A stretch of 32,612 bases of DNA, from the NCBI GenBank assembly GCA_001724215.1, contig MEDW01000018.1, positions 1-32,612 on the forward strand, written 5' to 3'. Source of the DNA: Erythrobacter sp. SCN 62-14. Lineage in GTDB: Bacteria > Pseudomonadota > Alphaproteobacteria > Sphingomonadales > Sphingomonadaceae. The notes beneath the pieces are model-generated. The model was not told the origin of the DNA and ran no database searches. It saw only the letters and a program-made list of their open reading frames with translations. This document shows, piece after piece, positions 12,246 through 25,276 of this stretch. Numbering within the stretch: position 1 is the first letter of the stretch; each line of letters starts with the position of its first letter. Made by a program: the position numbers and the translations under genes.

Positions 12246-13163
12246 ATGAGCGATACACCTACAAATGAGCAACTGGTTGCAGGACTGATCCGCCTTCTGA
12301 CGGTGGAAAAGCGCGCCGCCGATATCTATGCAGGCCCGCCGCAAAAGGATGGGATTGGCCGCGTGTTTGGCGGGCAGGTGCTGGCGCAGGCCCTGCAGGC
12401 CGCGCAGGCCAGTATTGCCGATGGCAAGATCGCCCATTCGCTCCACGCCTATTTCCTGCGCGGTGGGCGCGAAGGCGCTCCGATCGAATATCGCATCGAG
12501 CGCGATTTCGACGGTCGCAGCTTTGCCAATCGCCGGGTAGTCGCCAGTCAGGAAGGCGAGGATGGCCGCGCGGTGCCGATCCTCAACCTGACAGCGAGCT
12601 TCCAGCTGCCTGAAGACGGCCTTGAGCACGTTGATTCGCCCATGCCCGATGTGGTTGGTCCCGAAGAGCTGCGCTCGGACATCGAGTTGCGCCGCGAAAT
12701 TGCGGCAAGCTGGAGCGCTAAGCTTTCCCAAGCGCAATTGGAGCAGATGCTGCGGCCACGTCCCATTGAAATGCGTACGATTGATCGTCTGCACTGGATG
12801 AGTTCAAAGCCGCGCGAACCACGCGCTCACACCTGGTTTCGGGTGGCAGCGCCAATCACCGGCAATGATGACACGCCGGAATTGCATCGGGCGATCATCA
12901 CCTATGCCAGCGACTACACCCTGCTCGGCACCAGCGCGCTGCCGCATGGCCTTTCGTGGATGCGCAACGAAATTGTCGGAGCAAGCCTCGATCACGCACT
13001 GTGGTTCCACAAAGATGCACGCGCGGATGAATGGCTGCTCTATGCGACCGATGCGCCCTGGTCAGGCGGCGGGCGTGGTTTCAATCGCGGGCGGATTTTC
13101 AACCGCGCTGGCGAGCTCGTCGCCAGCGTCGCGCAGGAAGGCATGATGCGGAAACGTCGTTGA
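12246..13163 (+). CDS. tesB: Acyl-CoA thioesterase II
   Basis: GRVFGGQVLAQALQAAQASI...SLHAYFLRGG...PIEYRIERDFDGRSFANRRVVASQ, C-terminal SLDHALWFH...YATDAPWSGGGRGFNRGRIFNRAGELVASVAQEGMMR. Confidence 0.95.
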   Translation: MSDTPTNEQLVAGLIRLLTVEKRAADIYAGPPQKDGIGRVFGGQVLAQALQAAQASIADGKIAHSLHAYFLRGGREGAPIEYRIERDFDGRSFANRRVVASQEGEDGRAVPILNLTASFQLPEDGLEHVDSPMPDVVGPEELRSDIELRREIAASWSAKLSQAQLEQMLRPRPIEMRTIDRLHWMSSKPREPRAHTWFRVAAPITGNDDTPELHRAIITYASDYTLLGTSALPHGLSWMRNEIVGASLDHALWFHKDARADEWLLYATDAPWSGGGRGFNRGRIFNRAGELVASVAQEGMMRKRR

Positions 13164-13167
13164 GTTC

Positions 13168-13416
13168 CGCATCGCATCCGCGATGCGAAATCCTCGCTCA
13201 CGCGACCTGAAGGTCGCATCGCTGCGGGCGGGCAGTCGCCCTTGCGACACCTTTGGTGTCGACCAGACCAGTTTCGGTGGCACTTGCCCACCGCAAGGCC
13301 GAACAGCCCTCAAGCAGAGCAGCGGTAGGGCAACAAGAACGCCCTCAAGCAGAGCAGCGTTAGGCAGCTAAGGACTCCGTGTGAGCGAGGAGACCGCACC
13401 CGCGGAGGCGGGTGCG
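13168..13416. repeat. String-of-hairpins (BIME/MITE-like) element filling the convergent tesB/uspA intergenic region
   Basis: Perfect 11-bp inverted ends TCCTCGCTCAC (13191-13201) and GTGAGCGAGGA (13381-13391). Hairpins at 13168-13187, 13202-13217, 13226-13241, 13245-13261, 13275-13293 and 13395-13416. Internal 35-bp tandem repeat. Confidence 0.75.
13308..13372 (+). repeat. REP-like tandem repeat, array 1 (about 2 units, 35-bp period)
   Basis: CCCTCAAGCAGAGCAGCGGTAGGGCAACAAGAACG / CCCTCAAGCAGAGCAGCGTTAGGCAGC; CCT at 13308 and 13343. Confidence 0.9.
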
Positions 13417-13423
13417 AAAAACA

Positions 13424-14239
13424 TCAATGCGCCAGGAACATCGGCATTTGCGGATCGGTCAGCGAATGGCGCGTCACTCCGCCAAACAGCATTTCGGCGA
13501 AGCGCGATTGGCCATAGGCGCCCATAATCAGCATCGAACAACCGCGCATCTGTGCTGCGGAAAAGAGCGTGTCGGACACGCGCGCTTCCCCGCGCGGGAT
13601 TTCGACAATCTCGGCCTCGATACCATGGCGGCTCAGATATTGCGCGCCTTCCAAGGGAGGGAAATCAAACCGCCCCTCTCCGCGCTTTTCCTCGACAGTG
13701 GCAAGGTACACCTTGCTTGCCGTCTTGAGCAAAGGCACCGCATGGCGCAGCGCGACACAGGCCTCGGCAGAACCATTCCAGCCCACCAGCATCGGTGCAT
13801 TCACGTCGAGCCGTTTGGTATCGGCAGGAACCACCAGCACCGGCACAGGCGCTTTGAGCGCAAGGCTGCCCACCATGCTCGATGGCCCACGCGAATCTTC
13901 GCCCGCGTCATGCGGACCCACCAGCACAATATCCGCCAGCGCCGCCTGTTCCAGCAAGCGATGTTCAGCCGCGCCATAAACAAAGCGCCAATCCCAAGAG
14001 ACATCCTCATTCTTGAGTGTGCCCTCGATTTCGGCGCGCAGCTTTTCGGCCGCTTCCTTGATCACCGGCATGGCCGCCGCCATAGCTGAGCCGTAAAAAT
14101 CACCCGGCGCAAACACCTCGTAGGAAATCGCTTGCAAGCAAGTGATGTGACCATTGCTGGCGCGCGCCAGATCAAGCGCAACCTGCAGGCGCGCGGTCAT
14201 GGCGCGGTCATTGGCGATGTGCAGCAAGATCGACTTCAT
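13424..14239 (-). CDS. Universal stress protein, tandem UspA domains
   Basis: MKSILLHIANDRAMTARLQVALDLARASNGHITCLQAI..., second domain with GWNGSAEACVALRHAVPLL and LIMGAYGQSRFAEMLFGGVTRHSL. Confidence 0.93.
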   Translation of the reverse strand: MKSILLHIANDRAMTARLQVALDLARASNGHITCLQAISYEVFAPGDFYGSAMAAAMPVIKEAAEKLRAEIEGTLKNEDVSWDWRFVYGAAEHRLLEQAALADIVLVGPHDAGEDSRGPSSMVGSLALKAPVPVLVVPADTKRLDVNAPMLVGWNGSAEACVALRHAVPLLKTASKVYLATVEEKRGEGRFDFPPLEGAQYLSRHGIEAEIVEIPRGEARVSDTLFSAAQMRGCSMLIMGAYGQSRFAEMLFGGVTRHSLTDPQMPMFLAH

Positions 14240-14296
14240 GGCGTGTGTTCTCCCGAATAATATCCCCGGCAATAGGCCGCAACAAAGGGCGCTACC

Positions 14297-14310
14297 TTGA
14301 TCGGGATCAA
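14297..14310. promoter_or_regulatory. FNR/FixK-type (Crp-Fnr family) binding site, TTGATCGGGATCAA
   Basis: Perfect 14-bp palindrome-type match to TTGAT-N4-ATCAA between divergent uspA and the carotenoid oxygenase. Its centre is about 64 bp upstream of the uspA ATG. Confidence 0.75.
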
Positions 14311-14395
14311 AATTGCTCACGCATCTGATTCGTCCAAATCGCGTCCGCTTGCAAGCTGCCTGACTTGCGGTAGTCTGTGCGGACGGGAGAGTATC

Positions 14396-15991
14396 ATGCA
14401 GATCACGCGCCATCCACCTGTCAAAACCTCGCTGGAGCCCAGCAACCACCCCTATCTGACGGGCCCATGGACCCCGCTTCACGAAGAAGTGGACGTGGCC
14501 GAATTGCCGGTGATCGAAGGGGAAATCCCCGCCGATATTGACGGGATTTACCTGCGCAACACCGAAAATCAGGTGCATCAGCCGCTTGGCCGCCATCACC
14601 CCTTCGATGGCGATTCCATGATCCATCAGGTGAATATCAGCGGCGGCAAGGCGAGCTATCGCAATCGCTTTGTGCGCACGCATTGTTTTGAGGCCGAACA
14701 GATCGCCGGGCGAAGCCTGTGGGGCGGATTGATGGACCCGGCAGGCACGTCACAGCGCCCCGGCTTTGGCGCGCACGGCAGCCTCAAGGACACCGGATCG
14801 ACCGACATCATCGTCCACGCCGGGATTGCTTACGCCACGCTTTACCAATGCGGTGAGGCATGGATGCTTGATCCTGTCACCCTTGCCAATCTGGGCAAGG
14901 CGCCGTGGGGGCCGCTGGATGGCATCTCGGCCCATCCCAAAGTGGATGAAGAAACCGGCGAGATGATGTTCTTCAACTATTCGAAACACGCCCCTTTCAT
15001 GCATTATGGGGTGGTCGATCGGACGGGCAAGCTGGTACATTATATCCCCGTAGCCCTACCGGGGCCGCGCCTACCGCATGATATGGCGATCACCAAGAAC
15101 TGGTCGATATTGAATGATATGCCGCTGTTCTGGGACACAGAATTGCTGACCCGCGATATTCACGCCGCGCGCCTGCATGATGGCATTCCCACCCGCTTTG
15201 CCCTGATCCCGCGCCATGGGAGCCCGCAGGACATCCGCTGGTTCGAGGCCAGCCCCACCTATGTGCTCCATTGGACCAATGCGTGGGAGGAGGGAGACGA
15301 AGTCATCCTCGAAGGCTATCACCAGTCAAAGCCGATGCCCGATCCGCTGCCTGAAATGGGCCGTTACAGCCACATGATGGCCTATGTGGATGAACACTCG
15401 TTCCAATCGCGGCTGCATCGCTGGCGGTTTAACCTCAAAACGGGCGAAACCCGCGAAGAACGCCTCAGCGAGAAGATCGTGGAATTCGGGATGATCAATC
15501 CCAAATTCGCGATGAAGAAAAGCCGCTATGTCTGGTCCACCACCACGCGGCCCGGCTGGTTTTTGTTCAACGGCTATGTGCGCCATGATACCGAAACGGG
15601 CGAGGAACAGGTATTCCGCTTGCCCGAGGGCGTCTATGCCAGCGAAAGCCCGATGATCCCTCGCAAATCCGCCTCAAGCAGCGCAGCGGTAGGCGGACAA
15701 GTAACGCCCTCAAGCAGCGCAGCGGTAGGCGAACAAGAAACGCCCTCAAGCAGCGAAGCGATAGGGCGCGAAGACTCTGGCTACCTCATCACCTTCCTGA
15801 TCGACGAGAACTCCGGCACGTCGGAATGCGCAATTCTTGATGCAAGCGACATCGCCAAAGGGCCGATCTGCCGCCTTGCTCTGCCGCACAAGATCTGTTC
15901 GGGCACGCATTCGGTGTGGGTCGAACACGATCAACTGCGCCGCGATGCTGCCATTGCTCAGTCGGCGCGCGCACAGGCGGTGGCCTGCTAG
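14396..15991 (+). CDS. Carotenoid oxygenase family protein (carotenoid/lignostilbene cleavage dioxygenase-like)
   Basis: YLTGPWTPLHEEVDVAELPVIEGEIPADIDGIYLRNTENQVHQP...HHPFDGDSMIHQVNISGGKASYRNRFVRT..., SAHPKVDEETGEMMFFNYS, LPHDMAITKNWSILNDMPLF, GTHSVWVEH. Confidence 0.92.
   Translation: MQITRHPPVKTSLEPSNHPYLTGPWTPLHEEVDVAELPVIEGEIPADIDGIYLRNTENQVHQPLGRHHPFDGDSMIHQVNISGGKASYRNRFVRTHCFEAEQIAGRSLWGGLMDPAGTSQRPGFGAHGSLKDTGSTDIIVHAGIAYATLYQCGEAWMLDPVTLANLGKAPWGPLDGISAHPKVDEETGEMMFFNYSKHAPFMHYGVVDRTGKLVHYIPVALPGPRLPHDMAITKNWSILNDMPLFWDTELLTRDIHAARLHDGIPTRFALIPRHGSPQDIRWFEASPTYVLHWTNAWEEGDEVILEGYHQSKPMPDPLPEMGRYSHMMAYVDEHSFQSRLHRWRFNLKTGETREERLSEKIVEFGMINPKFAMKKSRYVWSTTTRPGWFLFNGYVRHDTETGEEQVFRLPEGVYASESPMIPRKSASSSAAVGGQVTPSSSAAVGEQETPSSSEAIGREDSGYLITFLIDENSGTSECAILDASDIAKGPICRLALPHKICSGTHSVWVEHDQLRRDAAIAQSARAQAVAC
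15671..15779 (+). repeat. REP-like tandem repeat, array 2 (3 units, 36-bp period), in frame inside the carotenoid oxygenase CDS
   Basis: CCTCAAGCAGCG at 15672, 15708 and 15744; encodes SASSSAAVGGQV-TPSSSAAVGEQE-TPSSSEAIGRED. Confidence 0.95.
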
Positions 15992-16101
15992 GCCCTCGTC
16001 GACCGGGCTTGCGCGCTGGTCCGTCGGGGCTTGTCGGCCCGCGCGAGCGGCCCTAGTCGGTGCATTATTGCTTAATTTGCACCTTAAGGGCCTTTTGCGA
16101 A

Positions 16102-17940
16102 ATGATTTCCCGCTCGATTGTCCGCGCTGCATTGATCGCCACCAGCGCGCTTACGCTTGCCGTCACCCCCGCGCTTGCCCAAAAGCAGCGCACGCCCAGC
16201 CCCGCCGTCGCCGCAGCGCAGGCCGAGGCGGAACGCGCCAAGCTGTTTGCCCTGTTTGAAGACGCTGACGAGCGCGAATTGGCGCTCAATCCCTTGTCGC
16301 GGCTGTTTCGCGGCGATGATGAAAATGCGCGGCGGCTGGGCGATTACCTGACCGATGCCTTCTTCATCGCTGGCCGCACCGACACCCAGCTCAATCTGGC
16401 GAAACTCGCGCTGATTGATCGCAGCAAGCTCGCTCCCAATGACCAGCTTGCCTATGATGTGTTCCGCTACAATCAGGAACAGGCCCTGCGCCTCAGCAGC
16501 GATGAAATGCGAGCCCTTACCGAAGTGCGCCCCGTCAATCACTTCACCGGCTTTCACACCTTCTATCCCACCTTTGCCAGCGGGACGGGCGCTGCGCCCT
16601 TCAAGACGCTCGCCAATTACGAGGATAACCTTGCGCGCCACGACGATTACATCGCCATCACCCTGCGCGCGATTGCCCGCAGCCGAGAAGGCATGGCAAG
16701 CGGCGTGGTGGAAACCAAGCTTACCATCAACAATGTGATCGAACAATTGAACACGCAGCTCGCCATCCCGGTGGCGGAATCGCAATTCATGGGCCCGGTG
16801 CGCGATTTCCCCGAAGGCATTACCGAGGCTGACCGCGCGCGGTTAACCGCCGCATATGAAGCCAAGACCCGCGAGATTTACGCCGCCCACACGGCGCTTC
16901 GCGATTTCCTGCGCGATGAATATCTGGACGCTGCGCGTGACAGCTTCGGCCTCAGCCAGATGAAAGGCGGCGCTGAACTTTATGCGCTGCTGGTCGAGCA
17001 GACCACCACGCTGCCATTGGATGCGGAAACCATCCACCAGTTGGGCCTTAAAGAAGTCGCCCGGATCAAAAGCGATCTTGAAGCGATCAAGGCCGAGGTG
17101 GAGTTTCAAGGCACGCTCAATGAATTTTTCGACTATGTGCGCACCGATCCCAAGTTCCAGCCTGAAAGCCGCGAAGCGCTGACGCAAAGCTATTACCAGA
17201 TCGGCCGCGAGGTTGACGCTAAGATCGCGGATTATTTCTCGCTGGTGCCGAAATCGCCGCTGGAAATCCGGCCCTATGACCCTTCGACCGAACAGTTTGA
17301 GGCGGGCGGCTCCTATATGCCCGGCACACCCGATGGTTCGCGCGCAGGGGTGTTCTATTTCAACGCCTATGATCTGCCGAGCCGGCTGACGACGGGCAAT
17401 GTGACGCTGTACTTGCACGAAGGCGCGCCGGGGCATCACTTCCAGATCAACCTTGCGCAGGAAGATGAAAGCCTGCCTGCCTTCATGCGCTTTGGCGGGA
17501 CGACCTCTTTTGTCGAAGGCTGGGCGCTTTATGCCGAGACTCTGGGCTATGAAATGGGCTTTTACGAAGACCCGTGGAACCGTTATGGCACGCTGCAGGA
17601 CGAACAATTGCGCGCGATGCGGCTGGTGGTGGACACCGGCCTTCACGCCAAGGGCTGGAGCCGCGACCAAGCCATCGACTTCATGCTCGAAAATTCCGGC
17701 ATGACCCGCACCGAAGTGGTGGCCGAGGTGGAACGCTACATCGCGATGCCGAGCCAAGCGCTTGGCTACAAGATCGGCGCGCTCAAAATTCAGGAATTGC
17801 GCCAGCGTTCACAGGACAAGCTGGGCGCGAAATTTGACATCAAGGCGTTCCACGAGCAGATCCTCAACACCGGCGGCCTACCGCTCGCAGTGCTTGAGGA
17901 CAAGATCGACCGCTGGATCGCCGCGCAGGCCGCGCGCTGA
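16102..17940 (+). CDS. DUF885 domain-containing protein, exported
   Basis: Signal peptide MISRSIVRAALIATSALTLAVTPALAQ; YLHEGAPGHHFQINLAQE (HExxH-like HEGAPGHH) and SFVEGWALYAETLGYEMGFYEDPWNRYGTLQDEQLRAMRLVVDTGLH. Confidence 0.93.
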   Translation: MISRSIVRAALIATSALTLAVTPALAQKQRTPSPAVAAAQAEAERAKLFALFEDADERELALNPLSRLFRGDDENARRLGDYLTDAFFIAGRTDTQLNLAKLALIDRSKLAPNDQLAYDVFRYNQEQALRLSSDEMRALTEVRPVNHFTGFHTFYPTFASGTGAAPFKTLANYEDNLARHDDYIAITLRAIARSREGMASGVVETKLTINNVIEQLNTQLAIPVAESQFMGPVRDFPEGITEADRARLTAAYEAKTREIYAAHTALRDFLRDEYLDAARDSFGLSQMKGGAELYALLVEQTTTLPLDAETIHQLGLKEVARIKSDLEAIKAEVEFQGTLNEFFDYVRTDPKFQPESREALTQSYYQIGREVDAKIADYFSLVPKSPLEIRPYDPSTEQFEAGGSYMPGTPDGSRAGVFYFNAYDLPSRLTTGNVTLYLHEGAPGHHFQINLAQEDESLPAFMRFGGTTSFVEGWALYAETLGYEMGFYEDPWNRYGTLQDEQLRAMRLVVDTGLHAKGWSRDQAIDFMLENSGMTRTEVVAEVERYIAMPSQALGYKIGALKIQELRQRSQDKLGAKFDIKAFHEQILNTGGLPLAVLEDKIDRWIAAQAAR

Positions 17941-17991
17941 TCGCATGGCTGGGGCCTCGGCTCGTCGTATCTCCTGACCCGGTTGCCTGCA

Positions 17992-18026
17992 GCTTGGATG
18001 GCCGGGCAGGGCCTGTTCATCCAAGC
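17992..18026. repeat. Perfect 8-bp inverted repeat upstream of the ompA-like gene
   Basis: GCTTGGAT (17992-17999) and ATCCAAGC (18019-18026). Confidence 0.55.
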
Positions 18027-18094
18027 GCAAGGTTGCAGCCAGCACCCGTTGTCGACAATTCACCAGAACGCCTGCTGCAAGGAGCCCTGCCGCC

Positions 18095-19000
18095 ATGATC
18101 ACCCAATCCCGTCAGTCATCTTTGCTCGCCCTCACCGGCCTGCTGGTCGCTGCCACCAGTGCGGCCCCTGTAGCAGCCCAGCCCGCCATGCCGGCACAAG
18201 GCAGCGATGTGCTCACCACTGTGACGGGCAATCTGCCCACGATGGCGGAAATGGAAGCCGGACCGCGGGTGGAAGGGATTATCTCGGCGCGGCGCGGTCA
18301 GGCCATGCAGATTGTTGCTGAAGACGGCACGACCACGTCGATCACGCTCCACCCTGAAACCACCATCCGCACGCGCGGCGGGTTTCTTGGCATCGGCAAC
18401 AGGAATTTTGATCAGAGCGCGCTGATCGCTGGCCTGCCGGTGGCAGTGCGCACGATGCAATATGGCGGCGGGCTGGTGGCGAGCGAAGTGCGCTTTACCA
18501 AGGATGATCGCCAGATCGCAGCCATGATCCGCGGCGGAACGGCGGCCCAATTTGCCGAACAAGGCGCTGCCATCGAGGCCAACGCGGCTGCCACCGAGGC
18601 CCTGCGCGGACGGCTGGGCGATATCGACAAGTATAATCTCAAAGCCACCACCAATGTCTATTTCGACACCGGCAAGGCCGCACTGACCCCGCGCGCCAAG
18701 GCCGAATTGTGCGAAGCCTCGCGCGCGGCCGAAATGAATGAAAATTCGCTGATGCTGGTGCTGGGATACACTGATTCCACCGGCAGTGAGGAAGCCAACC
18801 AGCGTTTGAGCGAGCGGCGCGCGGCAGCCGTGGTAAACCATCTGCAACAGGTCTGCCGCTGGAAGCCCTACCGGATGCTGACGCCGACCGGCATGGCGAT
18901 GAGCGATCCGGCTGCCGACAACAGCACCCCTGCGGGCCGTGCGCAGAACCGCCGCGTGTCGGTCAATGTGCTGGTGAGCAAGGCGCTCGACGGGCAGTAA
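18095..19000 (+). CDS. OmpA family protein, exported
   Basis: N-terminal signal sequence; C-terminal NVYFDTGKAALTPRAKAEL...LGYTDSTGSEEANQRLSERRAAAVVNHL...GRAQNRRVSVNV. Confidence 0.92.
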   Translation: MITQSRQSSLLALTGLLVAATSAAPVAAQPAMPAQGSDVLTTVTGNLPTMAEMEAGPRVEGIISARRGQAMQIVAEDGTTTSITLHPETTIRTRGGFLGIGNRNFDQSALIAGLPVAVRTMQYGGGLVASEVRFTKDDRQIAAMIRGGTAAQFAEQGAAIEANAAATEALRGRLGDIDKYNLKATTNVYFDTGKAALTPRAKAELCEASRAAEMNENSLMLVLGYTDSTGSEEANQRLSERRAAAVVNHLQQVCRWKPYRMLTPTGMAMSDPAADNSTPAGRAQNRRVSVNVLVSKALDGQ

Positions 19001-19028
19001 GCCCCCCCGGCTGCCGCGCGGCGGCATT

Positions 19029-20990
19029 TCACCCGCCCGCGTGGTAGAAATCATAGACCTTGCGCGCGACAGCGGCGCTGACGCCGGGGGCGCGTTGCAG
19101 GTCTTCGAGGGCGGCGGCGCGCACTTTGCTGGCCGTGCCGAAATGCAGCAGCAGCGCGCGTTTGCGCGCCGGGCCGATACCGGGGATTTCATCGAGCGGT
19201 GAGGCGGTGATTGCCTTGGAACGCTTGGCCCGGTGTGCGCCGATGACATAGCGGTGCACTTCATCGCGCAGGTTCTGGAGGTGGAACAAGAGCGGCGAAT
19301 TCACCGGCAGCATTTTTTCGCGCCCGTCGGGAAAATGGAACACTTCGCGCCCTTCGCGCCCGTGATGCGGCCCCTTGGCAATGCCGATCACCGCGATCTC
19401 ATCAGCAATGCCGATCTCTTCGAGCACGCGCATCACGCTCGACAGCTGCCCTTTGCCGCCATCGATCAGCACCAGATCGGGCAGAATGGTTTCGTGGCCG
19501 CCGGGCTTGGCCTGCGCGTCCTCCCCTTCCTCGCCAAAGCTGCGAAACCGCCGCGCCATCACCTCGCGCATCATCGCAAAGTCATCATTGGACTGCGCCT
19601 CACGGATGTTGAACTTGCGATATTGGGATTTTTCAAAGCCATCGGGCCCCGCCACCACCATCGCGCCCACGGCCTTGGCGCCCTGAATGTGGCTGTTGTC
19701 ATAGATTTCAATGCGAGCGGGCGGTGCGTCCAGCTCCAGAAACTCGGCCAGTTCGCGGTTCAATTTCGCCTTGGTCCCCGTCTCGGCCAAACGCCGTTCG
19801 AGCGCTTCGACAGCGTTGCGTGTCGCCTGCGCCATCAACCGCCGCCGATCACCGCGTTCGGGCACGGAAAGCCGCACCTTGCGCCCTGCGACTTCGCTAA
19901 GGGCTGCCTCGATCAATTCGGCTTCGGGCAAGGTGCGGTCAACCAGAATGGTCGGCGGGGGCGGCACTTCCTCGTAGAATTGCAGCATCACCTGCGCCAG
20001 CACTTGGGCTTCGTCCACGTCAGCGGTGTGGCGCGGGAAAAACGCGCGGTGGCCCCAGTTCTGCCCACCGCGAATGAAAAACGCCTGCACCCCCATGATT
20101 CCGCCCTTGGCCGCAAGCGCGAAGATATCGGCATCGCCAAGGCCCTGTGCGTTGATCGCCTGTGAGCCCTGAATAAAGGTCGCTGCGCGCAGCCGATCCC
20201 GCAGCATGGCGGCACGCTCGAAATCGAGGTTTTCCGCAGCTTCAGCCATCTGCTTTTCAAGGTCCGCCTGCACCTTGCCCGATTTTCCAGCGAGAAAATC
20301 CTTCGCCTGCCCCACCAGCGCGCTGTAATCCGCTTCGCTGATGCGGCCCACGCAGGGCGCCGAGCAACGCTTGATCTGATAGAGCAGACAAGGCCGGTCG
20401 CGCCGATCATAGAAGCTGTCGGTGCAAGACCTCAGCAGGAACAGCTTTTGCAAAGCGTTCAGCGTGGTGTTGACGCTGCCCGCGCTGGCGAATGGCCCAT
20501 AATAATTGCCCTTGGCCCGGCGCGCGCCGCGATGCTTGTGGATGCGCGGGAAGGCGTGATCCGAACGCAGCAGGATGAAAGGAAAGCTCTTGTCATCACG
20601 CAGCAGCACATTGAAGGGCGGGCGAAACCGCTTGATCAGCTGCGCTTCCAAAAGCAGCGCCTCGGCTTCGGAATTGGTGGTGATGATCTCCATGCTGCGC
20701 GTCTGGCTGACCATGCGCTGGAGCCGGTTGGTCAGCTGGGCAACTTGCGTGTAATTCGCCACCCGCGCCTTCAAGGAACGCGCCTTACCAACGTAAAGGA
20801 CATCGCCGCGCGCGTCGCACATCCGGTAAACACCGGGCACGGGTTTGAGCAGCCGCACAGTTTCGCGGATCGCAGCCACCCCGGCCTCCAGATCGGGCTG
20901 AGCGCGCGCGACTGTCGAGGCAGCGCGCGCCTCGTTGAAGCGGTCGCTGCCTTGCGGATTGTGCGGGGTTCCTGCCGGGGTCTTGGCCAT
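19029..20990 (-). CDS. uvrC: Excinuclease ABC subunit C
   Basis: GIY-YIG domain PGVYRMCDARGDVLYVGKARSLKARVANY, UVR motif, RIEIYDNSHIQGAKAVGAMVVAGPDGFEKSQYRKFNI, LVLIDGGKGQLSS, C-terminal HhH. ORF extends to 21026. Confidence 0.97.
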   Translation of the reverse strand: MAKTPAGTPHNPQGSDRFNEARAASTVARAQPDLEAGVAAIRETVRLLKPVPGVYRMCDARGDVLYVGKARSLKARVANYTQVAQLTNRLQRMVSQTRSMEIITTNSEAEALLLEAQLIKRFRPPFNVLLRDDKSFPFILLRSDHAFPRIHKHRGARRAKGNYYGPFASAGSVNTTLNALQKLFLLRSCTDSFYDRRDRPCLLYQIKRCSAPCVGRISEADYSALVGQAKDFLAGKSGKVQADLEKQMAEAAENLDFERAAMLRDRLRAATFIQGSQAINAQGLGDADIFALAAKGGIMGVQAFFIRGGQNWGHRAFFPRHTADVDEAQVLAQVMLQFYEEVPPPPTILVDRTLPEAELIEAALSEVAGRKVRLSVPERGDRRRLMAQATRNAVEALERRLAETGTKAKLNRELAEFLELDAPPARIEIYDNSHIQGAKAVGAMVVAGPDGFEKSQYRKFNIREAQSNDDFAMMREVMARRFRSFGEEGEDAQAKPGGHETILPDLVLIDGGKGQLSSVMRVLEEIGIADEIAVIGIAKGPHHGREGREVFHFPDGREKMLPVNSPLLFHLQNLRDEVHRYVIGAHRAKRSKAITASPLDEIPGIGPARKRALLLHFGTASKVRAAALEDLQRAPGVSAAVARKVYDFYHAGG

Positions 20991-21055
20991 GGGCTGCAAA
21001 TAGGGATCGCCGGGGGCCGTTGGCAAGCGGGCCTTGCGCGCCTATCGCCAGCGAC

Positions 21056-22267
21056 GTGAGCAATTATGATGTGATAATTCTGGGCGCGGGCGCTGCCGGG
21101 CTGATGTGTGCAGGCGTTGCGGGGCAGCGGGGCCTGCGCGTTGCGGTGCTGGAACGCGCCGAGGCACCGGGCAAGAAAATCCTTATTTCGGGCGGCGGGC
21201 GCTGCAATTTCACCAATCTGGGAGCAGGCCCTGCCAATTACCTCTCGGCCAATCCGCATTTCGCCAAGTCTGCGCTCGCCCGATACACGCCTACCGATTT
21301 TATCGCGCTAGTCGAAAGGCACGGCATCGCATGGCACGAAAAGACGCTGGGCCAGCTATTCTGCGATGGTTCAGCGCGGCAGATTGTCGCAATGCTGCTG
21401 GCGGAATGTCCGGCGGACACAGTGGACGTGATCTGCAACGCCGATGTCAGCGCCGTGGCGCGGGGCGACGACGGGGCGTTTCAAGTCACCGCCAGCGGCA
21501 AGGATTACACCGCGCCCGCGCTGGTGATTGCCACCGGCGGGCCTTCGATCCCCAAGATGGGGGCAACCGGCTTTGCCTATGATCTGGCGCGGCAATTTGG
21601 ATTGAAGGTGGTGGAGCCGCGCCCCGCCCTTGTCCCACTGACACTGGGGGGTGAGGATGTGCTGTTCCGCGAGCTTTCCGGTGTGGCAGCGCCGGTGCGG
21701 GCGCGGGCCGGTGCGGGCAAACAAAGGGCAGAATTTGCCGAGGCGGCGCTGTTCACCCACAAGGGACTATCCGGCCCAGCCATCCTGCAAATCTCGTCCT
21801 ATTGGCGGCATGGCGAGGAAATCGGGATCACTTTTCTGCCCGATGCGGGCACCGACTGGCTGATCGCGGCCAAGCGCGACCGCCCACGCGCATCCTTGCG
21901 CACACTGCTGCGCGAGGCTCTGCCCGCGCGCCTCGCCGATGCACTGGCCGACAAGCTGGCGCTGGAACGCGAACTTGGCAATCTGCCCGACAACGCCCTG
22001 CGTGCAGCGCAAGCCCAGCTGGCCGACTGGCGCTTTACCCCCAACGGAACCGAAGGCCTCGCCAAGGCCGAAGTCACCAGCGGCGGCATTTCCACGGCCG
22101 AGCTATCCTCGCAGACGATGGAAGCAAAGCGCGTGCCCGGCCTTTATGCCATTGGCGAGGCGGTGGATGTGACGGGCTGGCTTGGCGGTTACAATTTCCA
22201 ATGGGCCTGGGCCAGCGGCCACGCTTGCGGAAGTGTTATAGGTTCGCCTACCGCTGACGCTGCTTGA
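21056..22267 (+). CDS. NAD(P)/FAD-dependent oxidoreductase, BaiN/HI0933 family
   Basis: SNYDVIILGAGAAGLMCAGVAGQRGLRVAVLERAEAPGKKILISGGGRCNFTNLG...GLYAIGEAVDVTGWLGGYNFQWAWASGHACG; GTG start likely. Confidence 0.92.
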   Translation: MSNYDVIILGAGAAGLMCAGVAGQRGLRVAVLERAEAPGKKILISGGGRCNFTNLGAGPANYLSANPHFAKSALARYTPTDFIALVERHGIAWHEKTLGQLFCDGSARQIVAMLLAECPADTVDVICNADVSAVARGDDGAFQVTASGKDYTAPALVIATGGPSIPKMGATGFAYDLARQFGLKVVEPRPALVPLTLGGEDVLFRELSGVAAPVRARAGAGKQRAEFAEAALFTHKGLSGPAILQISSYWRHGEEIGITFLPDAGTDWLIAAKRDRPRASLRTLLREALPARLADALADKLALERELGNLPDNALRAAQAQLADWRFTPNGTEGLAKAEVTSGGISTAELSSQTMEAKRVPGLYAIGEAVDVTGWLGGYNFQWAWASGHACGSVIGSPTADAA

Positions 22268-22310
22268 GGCGGGCTTGGTTCGCCTACCGCTGACGCTGCT
22301 TGAGGCGGGA
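22241..22310 (-). repeat. REP-like tandem repeat, array 3 (2 units, 36-bp period), opposite orientation
   Basis: GGTTCGCCTACCGCTGACGCTGCTTGAGGCGGGCTT followed by GGTTCGCCTACCGCTGACGCTGCTTGAGGCGGGAGT. Confidence 0.95.
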
Positions 22311-22339
22311 GTGACTCTCTCACCCCCTTAGGCCAAAAA

Positions 22340-25276
22340 TCAAAACAGCTTGCGGACCTCAAACCGGAAATTGAGGCCAAGCGGGTCGATCAGGAGCGGC
22401 TGATAGGCAAGCGGTGTGTTCCCGAGCTGATCGCGCACCTGCAATTGCTGATCAAACAGGTTCTCCGCGCGCAAGGTGAGGCGCAGGTTCTTGGCGAACC
22501 CTTCTTTCTGCCCAAGCAATTGATCCATATTGAGGAACAGCCGCAAGTCGATTGTCACAAGATCATCGAAGAACAGATCGGAAGCGCCGGGCAGGCCTGA
22601 ACCATCCAGCCGCGTGGGCCCAGTGTAGCGGCCCGAAGCGCGCACGCCGACACCCTTGCCGAATACGCCGACTTCCAGCCGGCTGGTGTTGCGCGGGAAG
22701 CCGAAGCGGCCGGTGGCAGCGCCATCAAGCTGATCAAGCGGTGCGACACCTGGTGCGATCAGGATCTGGTTTTGCAGTTCGATCGTGTGGGTGAGGTTGG
22801 CAAAGTAGCGCCAACCCTGAAAACTGCCCGGCCCGAAGCCACCCGGACCACCGCGCGGCGGGCCGCCTGTGGGGGCCCCGCTAGCCGGAGCGCCGCCGCC
22901 CGCACCACCGCGCCCGCCAGCGCCGCCGCTGAACAAGGACGGATCAATCGCACAAATCTGCGTGCGAACCTGCGCTAGGCGTTCGCGGTCCACCGTGCCA
23001 TCGGGCTTGCGAACGCGGGCAAGGAGTTGTTCAAAACGCGCCGGGTCAAAGCCGGGGAAGCGCTCGGACAGATCCTCGCCGTTCTCAATCGCATCGACGA
23101 TGCCAGTGATGAATTCGAGGCCATCTTCCTTGCACAACCGTTCGCGGAAGGCGAGGAACTGCTCGCGCTGCATCGCGCTCGGCGCGCCGCCTGCACCCGG
23201 CGCAGGACCGCCTGCGCCAGCCGGAGGTCCTCCAGCCCCGCCGCCGGCGCCTGCCGCCATGGCGGCAAACATTGCGCCGCGTCCGCCGCGACCACCACCG
23301 CCCGCAGCGCCGCCTTCGCCGCCGGTTTCCTTGGGTCCGCCAAAGCTGCCGCGCGTGGACAGGGTGAATTGCAAGCGATCAGACTTGGTCTCAGCAAAGC
23401 TGACCGCGCGCTGATCAATGCGGATCAGCCGCCCATCCTGATCACGCGTGACCCGCCCCGGAAAAGCCGCTTCGATCGCTTGCGTGATCTGCGGGAAGGG
23501 CGAGACAACATTATCCGAACGGTTGCGGATGTACTCCACCGTCAGGCGGGTGTCCTTGATCGCTGGCAGTTCCCAATTGGCGGCAAATTTCCAGTCACGC
23601 TGGGTTTCGGCCAGCAGATCGGGATTGCCGCCCGTCACCACTTCGGCCAGCACGTTTTCGCCGCGCACGAAATCGAACACCGGCACGTTGAAATTGAGGA
23701 TGATCGGGTTGCCAAGCTGCGCCAGCCCCGGCGCGACTTCACGGTAAATATAGGTCGCCGAAACATCGAGCTTATTGCTCGGCGCCCAGGTGAGGCCCGC
23801 GTTCCAATCGCCCAACAGGCCAAAGTCCGACAAATCCTCCAGACCCGCCTGCGCGTTCAGTGTAAGGCTGCCGATCGCCTCGCCAAAGCCAGTGCGGGTG
23901 CTGGTGATCGGCACCACCAGATTGGCGCTCGATGCTGCACGTCTGCGGGTGAGCTGCACATCCTGCGCGCTCAGGGTGTCGCTGCTGTTGATCTGGCGCC
24001 AATCCAGCGCTGCGGTAAAAGTCGCCAGCACATCGCCAGCCGGAAGATGCGCGACTGGCCCATCGAGCGTGTGGAGCGATGTTGCATCAATATTCTGGCT
24101 GCGCGCGGTTTCAAACCCTGCATCCAGCGCCCGCGGCAACACCGCGTTGATCGGCAAAAGCCCCGCAGCCGCATCGGCAATCAGCCCGCTGGCGTCAAAG
24201 CGCCGATCAATCTCGGTGGTGCTCTCGCTCAGCGAGGCATCAAAGGTGCTGGTCAGACGGAAGGAATTGACCGGCTTGGTCAGCGAGCCTGCCGCCGAGA
24301 CCCGGTCAGTTGACGTGCGCCGTTCCAGCGGACTGGCCTCGCCAAAGGTGCGCCGCGCACTGTTTTCATCAGGGTCGATCAGGGTGATGACATTGAGGCC
24401 ATCGAGATCGCGGCGCTGGGCGCGGGTGTAATTGACATTGGCGCTGACCGAAGTGCCGGAATTGATAAACGCCTTGGCCCAGCTCGCATTGGCATCAATA
24501 TCCAGTGTGTCGGGACGCAGCGAGCGGAATGGCGCCTGTTCGGGATCGCCGACAATCTCGGACACCGAACCGGGCACCTGAATGATCGAGCGTTCATCTT
24601 CTGTCAGGATGGTCTCATCGCGGACTTCGAGATTGAGATTGATGCGCCCGCCATCGGCAATCTTGAGATAGCCCAATTGCTGGCGGTTGGTGAGCTGCCC
24701 GCCGCGCGACGGCGTTGCCAGTTCAAATTCGCCCTGACGGTTCGAATAATTGTCTTTCAGCACCAGGTTGATCACACGGCGATCAGGCGGAAAGCCAAAA
24801 CGCAGCGCGACTTCTTCGGGGAACACCTCGACCTTGGCGAGGGCTTCGGGCGGATAGGCGGCGAATTCGCGGAATGAAGCGATGCGGATGCCATTCACCA
24901 GAATGATCGGCTGACCACCGCCGCCGCGCCCACGCGCCGAACCGGTCTGCGCCGAAATCTGCGCGATCAGTTCGGCAACCGAAGTCACGCCTTCCCCGGC
25001 AATCGCTGTTTCATCAAGCGTCAGCAGCGGGGCCTGATCCACCACCAATTGTCCGCGGGTGCGACGCCCGCTGACGATGATTTCGCTGGTGCCACGCGGC
25101 ACGACGGGATCGGCCTCGGCCTGCTCGGGATCGATCTGCCCGGCACTTTGCACGGCGAGGGCGGCATCGGCCTTGACGCTGGCATCATTGGCAACACCCT
25201 GCGCGGTCACTGCGATCAGGCTTGTCCCGGCCACGCCCGCGCGCAGCATCCAGCGAGAAGAAACAGAGAGGTTCAT
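22340..25276 (-). CDS. TonB-dependent receptor with Gly-rich inserts
   Basis: Signal-like N-terminus [29 protein letters not shown]; plug region [44 protein letters not shown]...[53 protein letters not shown]; barrel-like C-terminus ending [11 protein letters not shown]. Confidence 0.88.

Follow-up and report, generated by a model that had tools for sequence, protein, structure and literature searches.

A small REP-like hairpin, probably copied in frame into a predicted loop of an Erythrobacter carotenoid oxygenase and into other genes

A carotenoid/apocarotenoid oxygenase gene of Erythrobacter sp. SCN 62-14 contains three in-frame units of a hairpin-forming repeat of about 36 bp that is dispersed throughout the same genome, largely outside genes. 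We consider it highly probable (roughly 0.86) that the segment is a propagating REP-like hairpin that was copied into the gene, its surviving copies lying in permissive loops, in one frame, and changing in number by whole codons. A first-pass annotation of this DNA had proposed invasion of a loop by a REP-like element. That proposal is supported here and refined, in that the invasion appears to be recurrent, other genes are affected as well and the tags that define the GTAG and CGTC repeats are absent. The evidence strongly supports an invading element and weakly supports any account of how that element moves.

The stretch of DNA analyzed (32,612 nucleotides; hereafter the window) corresponds to contig C18 in a draft genome of 2.80 Mb, with its nearest named homologues in Erythrobacter and Porphyrobacter. 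Its relevant features are as follows.

14396-15991, + strand: CDS of an RPE65-family carotenoid/apocarotenoid oxygenase (PF03055, E=7.8e-116)
15662-15667, + strand: host Arg-Lys codons, 5' of the insertion site (homologue alignment)
15672-15707, + strand: hairpin repeat unit 1, in frame (covariance model match 15667-15698; TRF)
15708-15743, + strand: hairpin repeat unit 2, in frame (covariance model match 15703-15734; TRF)
15744-15779, + strand: hairpin repeat unit 3, in frame (covariance model match 15739-15770)
15770-15787, + strand: host EDSGYL codons, 3' of the insertion site (homologue alignment)
13303-13369, + strand: pair of tandem units with a 35-bp period, in the intergenic region separating the convergent thioesterase and Usp genes (covariance model)
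22242-22310, - strand: pair of tandem units with a 36-bp period, flanked by convergent genes (TRF, covariance model)

The oxygenase reading frame is open from 14297 (14297-15991), and translation probably begins at the ATG at 14396, a methionine shared by homologues. The three 36-bp units begin at 15672, 15708 and 15744 and encode SASSSAAVGGQV-TPSSSAAVGEQE-TPSSSEAIGRED, exactly as first read, and the segment noted earlier between PMIPRK and EDSGYLITF is the peptide SASSSAAVGGQVTPSSSAAVGEQETPSSSEAIGRED. TRF describes the array as having a period of 36, 2.6 copies and a score of 160; in unit 3, the host sequence GAAGACTCT stands in place of the element tail. The AlphaFold model of the protein (32 sequences; mean pLDDT 85.9) matches the fold of carotenoid and stilbene oxygenases in the PDB (RPE65 fold). 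Its pLDDT falls below 50 only at residues 427-455, which lie within the repeat-encoded residues 425-458 and between two beta strands. The repeat-encoded segment is predicted to be a disordered loop, in line with the earlier suggestion of a tolerant surface loop; its low model confidence hints at a surface position. The model of PheS, another host of the element, was poor (mean pLDDT 49.4) and was left out of the argument.

Alignment bears out the expectation that related oxygenases would lack the segment: the majority of homologues have an empty 12-codon site reading RK-GATS-EDDGYL. The insert had been put at about 36 residues, whereas the net gain relative to empty sites is 30 codons (42 vs. 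12). Sixteen of the 59 aligned genes, including that of the window, are filled at the same codons, either with one to four short units or with a longer form of the element (L045 and L070).

The element comprises a covarying outer stem enclosing the core CTCAAGYAGCGNAGCGRTAG, followed by the tail AACAARRAC, with a core consensus of CTCAAGYAGCG-N-AGCGRTAG and a tip of GC-GNA-GC. Because conservation begins at about -4 and ends at about +33 in a profile of 85 single copies, being limited to that interval, we regard the element as a bounded unit of about 36 bp. Stem pairing was assessed on a gap-free alignment of 38 units against 500 shuffles and slid controls. The outer stem shows 43 both-side changes compared with 15.8 +/- 3.0 in the shuffled alignments, none of the 500 reaching 43, and covariation in the slid controls is far lower. 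The abundant copies outside genes retain this stem covariation. The unit had been called palindromic, and it does form a hairpin, albeit an imperfect one in which a short outer stem (4-6 bp) is combined with a small inner hairpin. At the tip, 173 of 178 units have the triplet GNA, where N may be A, C, G or T, closed by two G-C pairs. GNA loops closed in this way form DNA mini-hairpins of extraordinary stability (PMC4686876), which would point to a single-stranded DNA form, although an RNA role is also conceivable. A search of window positions 12500-23000 against Rfam gave no match near the gathering score.

The genome census, based on searches and retrieved stretches, yielded 46 matches to the covariance model at E about 1e-3 or better and 43 BLAST matches to the 111-bp oxygenase array, the best other copy having E=5.9e-29. 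These dozens of copies, many of them outside genes, provide the further occurrences that the first-pass annotation had suggested searching for, and their number indicates dispersal far beyond chance. Both copies previously noted elsewhere in the window were confirmed. The copy near 13308, wholly between genes, consists of the two plus-strand units at 13303-13369; that near 22241, across a gene end, spans 22242-22310 and overlaps the end of an HI0933-like oxidoreductase ORF (21020-22267), the final codons and stop of which come from the repeat (22242-22274).

By covariance model, the element is present in 86 of 100 Erythrobacter genomes and has a patchy distribution beyond the genus, being found in 51 of 151 genomes of the larger family and 16 of 289 across the class Alphaproteobacteria. 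Among all arrays, 112 of 141 were not called within a CDS. A 1.7-Mb genome from another alphaproteobacterial family (G307, L319; GC about 49%) carries 29 copies with an identical core and with tails of ACATATAT or AGAATAAAT, unlike the Erythrobacter tail. Conservation of the core thus reaches far outside Erythrobacter, and the tail differs by lineage.

In-frame copies also occur in the genes for PheS, PutA, an SLC13/DASS transporter, UvrB, a cyclophilin and a DUF1905 protein. In-gene calls combined a home-made codon model with homology; the UvrB copy (L025) is below the codon-model thresholds and is in frame by homology, and two loci called in-gene by the codon model with four mismatches (L101 and L145) were discarded as not being genuine copies. 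Empty PheS sites span 10 codons; filled ones show several classes of junction within one loop, with five changes on a gene tree of 31 genes. The oxygenase and these six others all use the SSSxAVG frame, so that seven of eight host genes share it, a bias with p of about 0.0015 under the simplification that four frames are equally likely; both reverse frames of the element are open in 97% of copies. The eighth gene encodes a predicted membrane protein (L172:1455-2255) in which the copy is read in another frame (LKQRSGR).

In line with the earlier remark that a period of 12 codons preserves the frame, unit spacing within genes is 36 bp in 11 cases and 33 bp in one, all multiples of three. Outside genes the spacing is mainly 35 bp, and only 6 of 38 values are multiples of three (Fisher p=1.5e-7, although related arrays are not independent and the true weight is lower).

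The oxygenase loop may have been entered once or repeatedly. One ancestral insertion, followed by many losses or by between-species transfer through local homologous recombination, would account for identical 3' junctions in nonadjacent species (the window gene, L036 and L044; also L040 and L043), the identical junctions of distant filled alleles reading GREDSGYL and GEQEGYL. It would also account for the restriction of EDS, in place of EDD, to filled alleles. Against such a history, a tree of the 59 oxygenase genes built without the insert requires 12 gains or losses, and collapsing weak branches leaves nine (under 80) or six (under 95), so that at least six changes are left. Filled and empty states are scattered almost randomly on this tree, 7% of shuffles needing as few changes. 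Moreover, the empty sites are outgroup-like (RKGATSEDDGYL) and bear no footprint, the filled sites comprise several 5' and several 3' junction classes as well as the long form, and the PheS loop likewise has several junction classes. Differing junctions together with footprint-free empty sites favor repeated gain, and we regard a single insertion as unlikely, if worth serious weighing; the oxygenase insertion looks recurrent. As some distant species share junctions, however, local gene conversion may make independent insertions look more numerous than they are.

Selection on the hairpin itself or on its peptide would offer other explanations. The hairpin, in-gene copies included, could be a selected regulatory or structural nucleic-acid element, such as an mRNA 3'-end stabilizer, an attenuator or a nucleoid-protein site. 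Intergenic copies are indeed commoner at gene 3' ends, 37 lying between convergent, 37 between unidirectional and 16 between divergent genes, and the core is conserved across alphaproteobacterial families. We nonetheless find such a role rather improbable, since copy number ranges from 0 to more than 40 between species of one genus, unlike that of a conserved regulatory site, and presence within genes is patchy. That the linker is adaptive, its peptide being useful to the oxygenase, PheS, PutA and others and its duplications selected, would fit the single dominant reading frame and arrays as long as three to four units in the oxygenase and three in the SLC13 transporter. It is very unlikely given that most relatives lack the insert, that the host proteins are unrelated and that junctions and lengths vary. 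We give almost no credence to an ordinary Ser/Ala-rich low-complexity linker grown by replication slippage with no mobile element. The unit is tandem and its number varies by species, as slippage would have it, but it recurs in other genes and, dozens of times, between genes, and the segment is missing from close homologues. Intergenic copies and covariation of the outer stem rule out a low-complexity coding repeat, and neither homologues with the segment in unrelated codons nor a lack of copies elsewhere, both of which were looked for, was found.

Under the preferred reading of an invading hairpin, a short REP-like unit of about 36 bp would propagate and copy itself into genes, and selection would remove most of the in-gene insertions. 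Surviving copies would sit in permissive loops, in the frame predicted to encode the flexible hydrophilic linker SSSxAVGxQ, and units would be gained by tandem duplication or lost, each time in whole codons. The host protein would presumably tolerate the linker rather than use it, and the same loops may have been entered repeatedly, as opposed to one entry followed by losses. Copying could tentatively be ascribed to a single-stranded DNA hairpin capped by the GNA mini-hairpin. It is similarly conceivable, though far from assured, that the element represents a RAYT-less alphaproteobacterial hairpin family, its GNA-capped core conserved between families, that spreads as single-stranded DNA and re-enters a few loops (those of the oxygenase, PheS, PutA and SLC13) across species, these loops then being true insertion hot spots at which new peptide segments arise.

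Searches for a mobilizing enzyme found none for the element. Y1/RAYT-type transposases are rare in the genus (7 of 100 genomes), and the sole Y1 transposase of the present genome looks like part of an IS200/IS605-like unit, its 2-kb locus containing no match to the core; RAYT as the mobilizer is accordingly unsupported. Spread by phage or plasmid was also rejected, as the element had no phage match and only two weak plasmid matches, both in Rhodobacter. Inspection of the PheS and oxygenase sites by eye gave no consistent target-site duplication. A comparison of filled and empty PheS sites revealed no clean duplication common to them; AAGAC is repeated in two species but also matches the element tail.

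With respect to known systems, the element fits the generic description of a REP (20-40 bp, dispersed, palindromic and mainly extragenic). Rickettsia palindromic elements (RPEs) are short palindromic DNAs found in frame in unrelated protein genes (PMC10969869; PMC3733652). The analogy drawn with them in the first-pass annotation is one of behavior, with in-frame insertion at tolerated sites of unrelated genes (eight here) and empty sites. RPEs are described as being about 150 bp long and belong to obligate intracellular hosts, whereas the present element is about 36 bp long, has another core, is mostly intergenic and resides in free-living Erythrobacter, and it is set apart on this description. 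RPE-4 and RPE-6 are CGTC REPs.

CGTC and GTAG REPs have been reported in genes of several bacteria, and in E. litoralis and S. alaskensis Di Nocera et al. (2013; PMC3733652) described CGTC REPs inside the genes for tRNA synthetase and TruB. Like the present element, CGTC REPs are small dispersed alphaproteobacterial hairpins that are also intragenic, and some copies have the long apical module of the element's long form. They are characterized by a terminal CGTC tag, an AT-starting stem of 8-9 bp, a CCA tail and head-to-head dimers, none of which the element shows; it has instead CTCAAG..TAG, a 3' AACAARRAC tail and head-to-tail tandems. GTAG REPs and REPINs resemble it in size, palindromy, dispersal, gene 3'-end preference and a GTAG motif within the unit. 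Here that motif lies within the hairpin, preceding the outer stem on the 3' side, and 27% of single copies have ATAG instead; the terminal GTAG next to the stem and the RAYT gene flanked by repeats that define GTAG REPs were not found. MITEs are likewise noncoding, dispersed and hairpin-forming and may fuse with reading frames; the element is far shorter, with no consistent target duplication seen.

Searches with the element core strings found no match in open-access full text, though subscription papers and supplements may differ. The hairpin family is apparently unreported, whereas invasion of genes by REPs is itself already known. In-frame gene invasion by small palindromes, best known in Rickettsia, thus extends to free-living bacteria, with a different hairpin and many pairs of species with empty and filled sites. 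Culturable hosts make it testable how RAYT-less REPs multiply, and whether new protein segments can arise from such inserts or these are only tolerated noise. For annotators, a linker that differs between orthologues may reflect a recent DNA insertion.

Classic CGTC REPs are also present in the SCN 62-14 genome (L324-L333; e.g., G000:C4:5797-5878 and C9:29041-29138), often arranged in facing pairs with about 70-95 bp between them; two palindromic families thus coexist. Their tips are GNNA as opposed to the GNA of the element. The long form of the element (..AGCGGTTGCGAAGCACARCCGNAGGYTGAACC..) was observed at L166, L238, L241, L244, L246, L258 and other loci, and its apical module also occurs inside elements with CGTC stems; a module common to both families suggests loop exchange between them. 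In addition, window positions 13170-13420 hold a second intergenic mosaic of palindromes and CCTCGC..GCTGCGGGCGG that flanks the intergenic copies, and 15 of 29 copies of the hairpin element in this genome have a GCTGCGGGCGG-like motif nearby.
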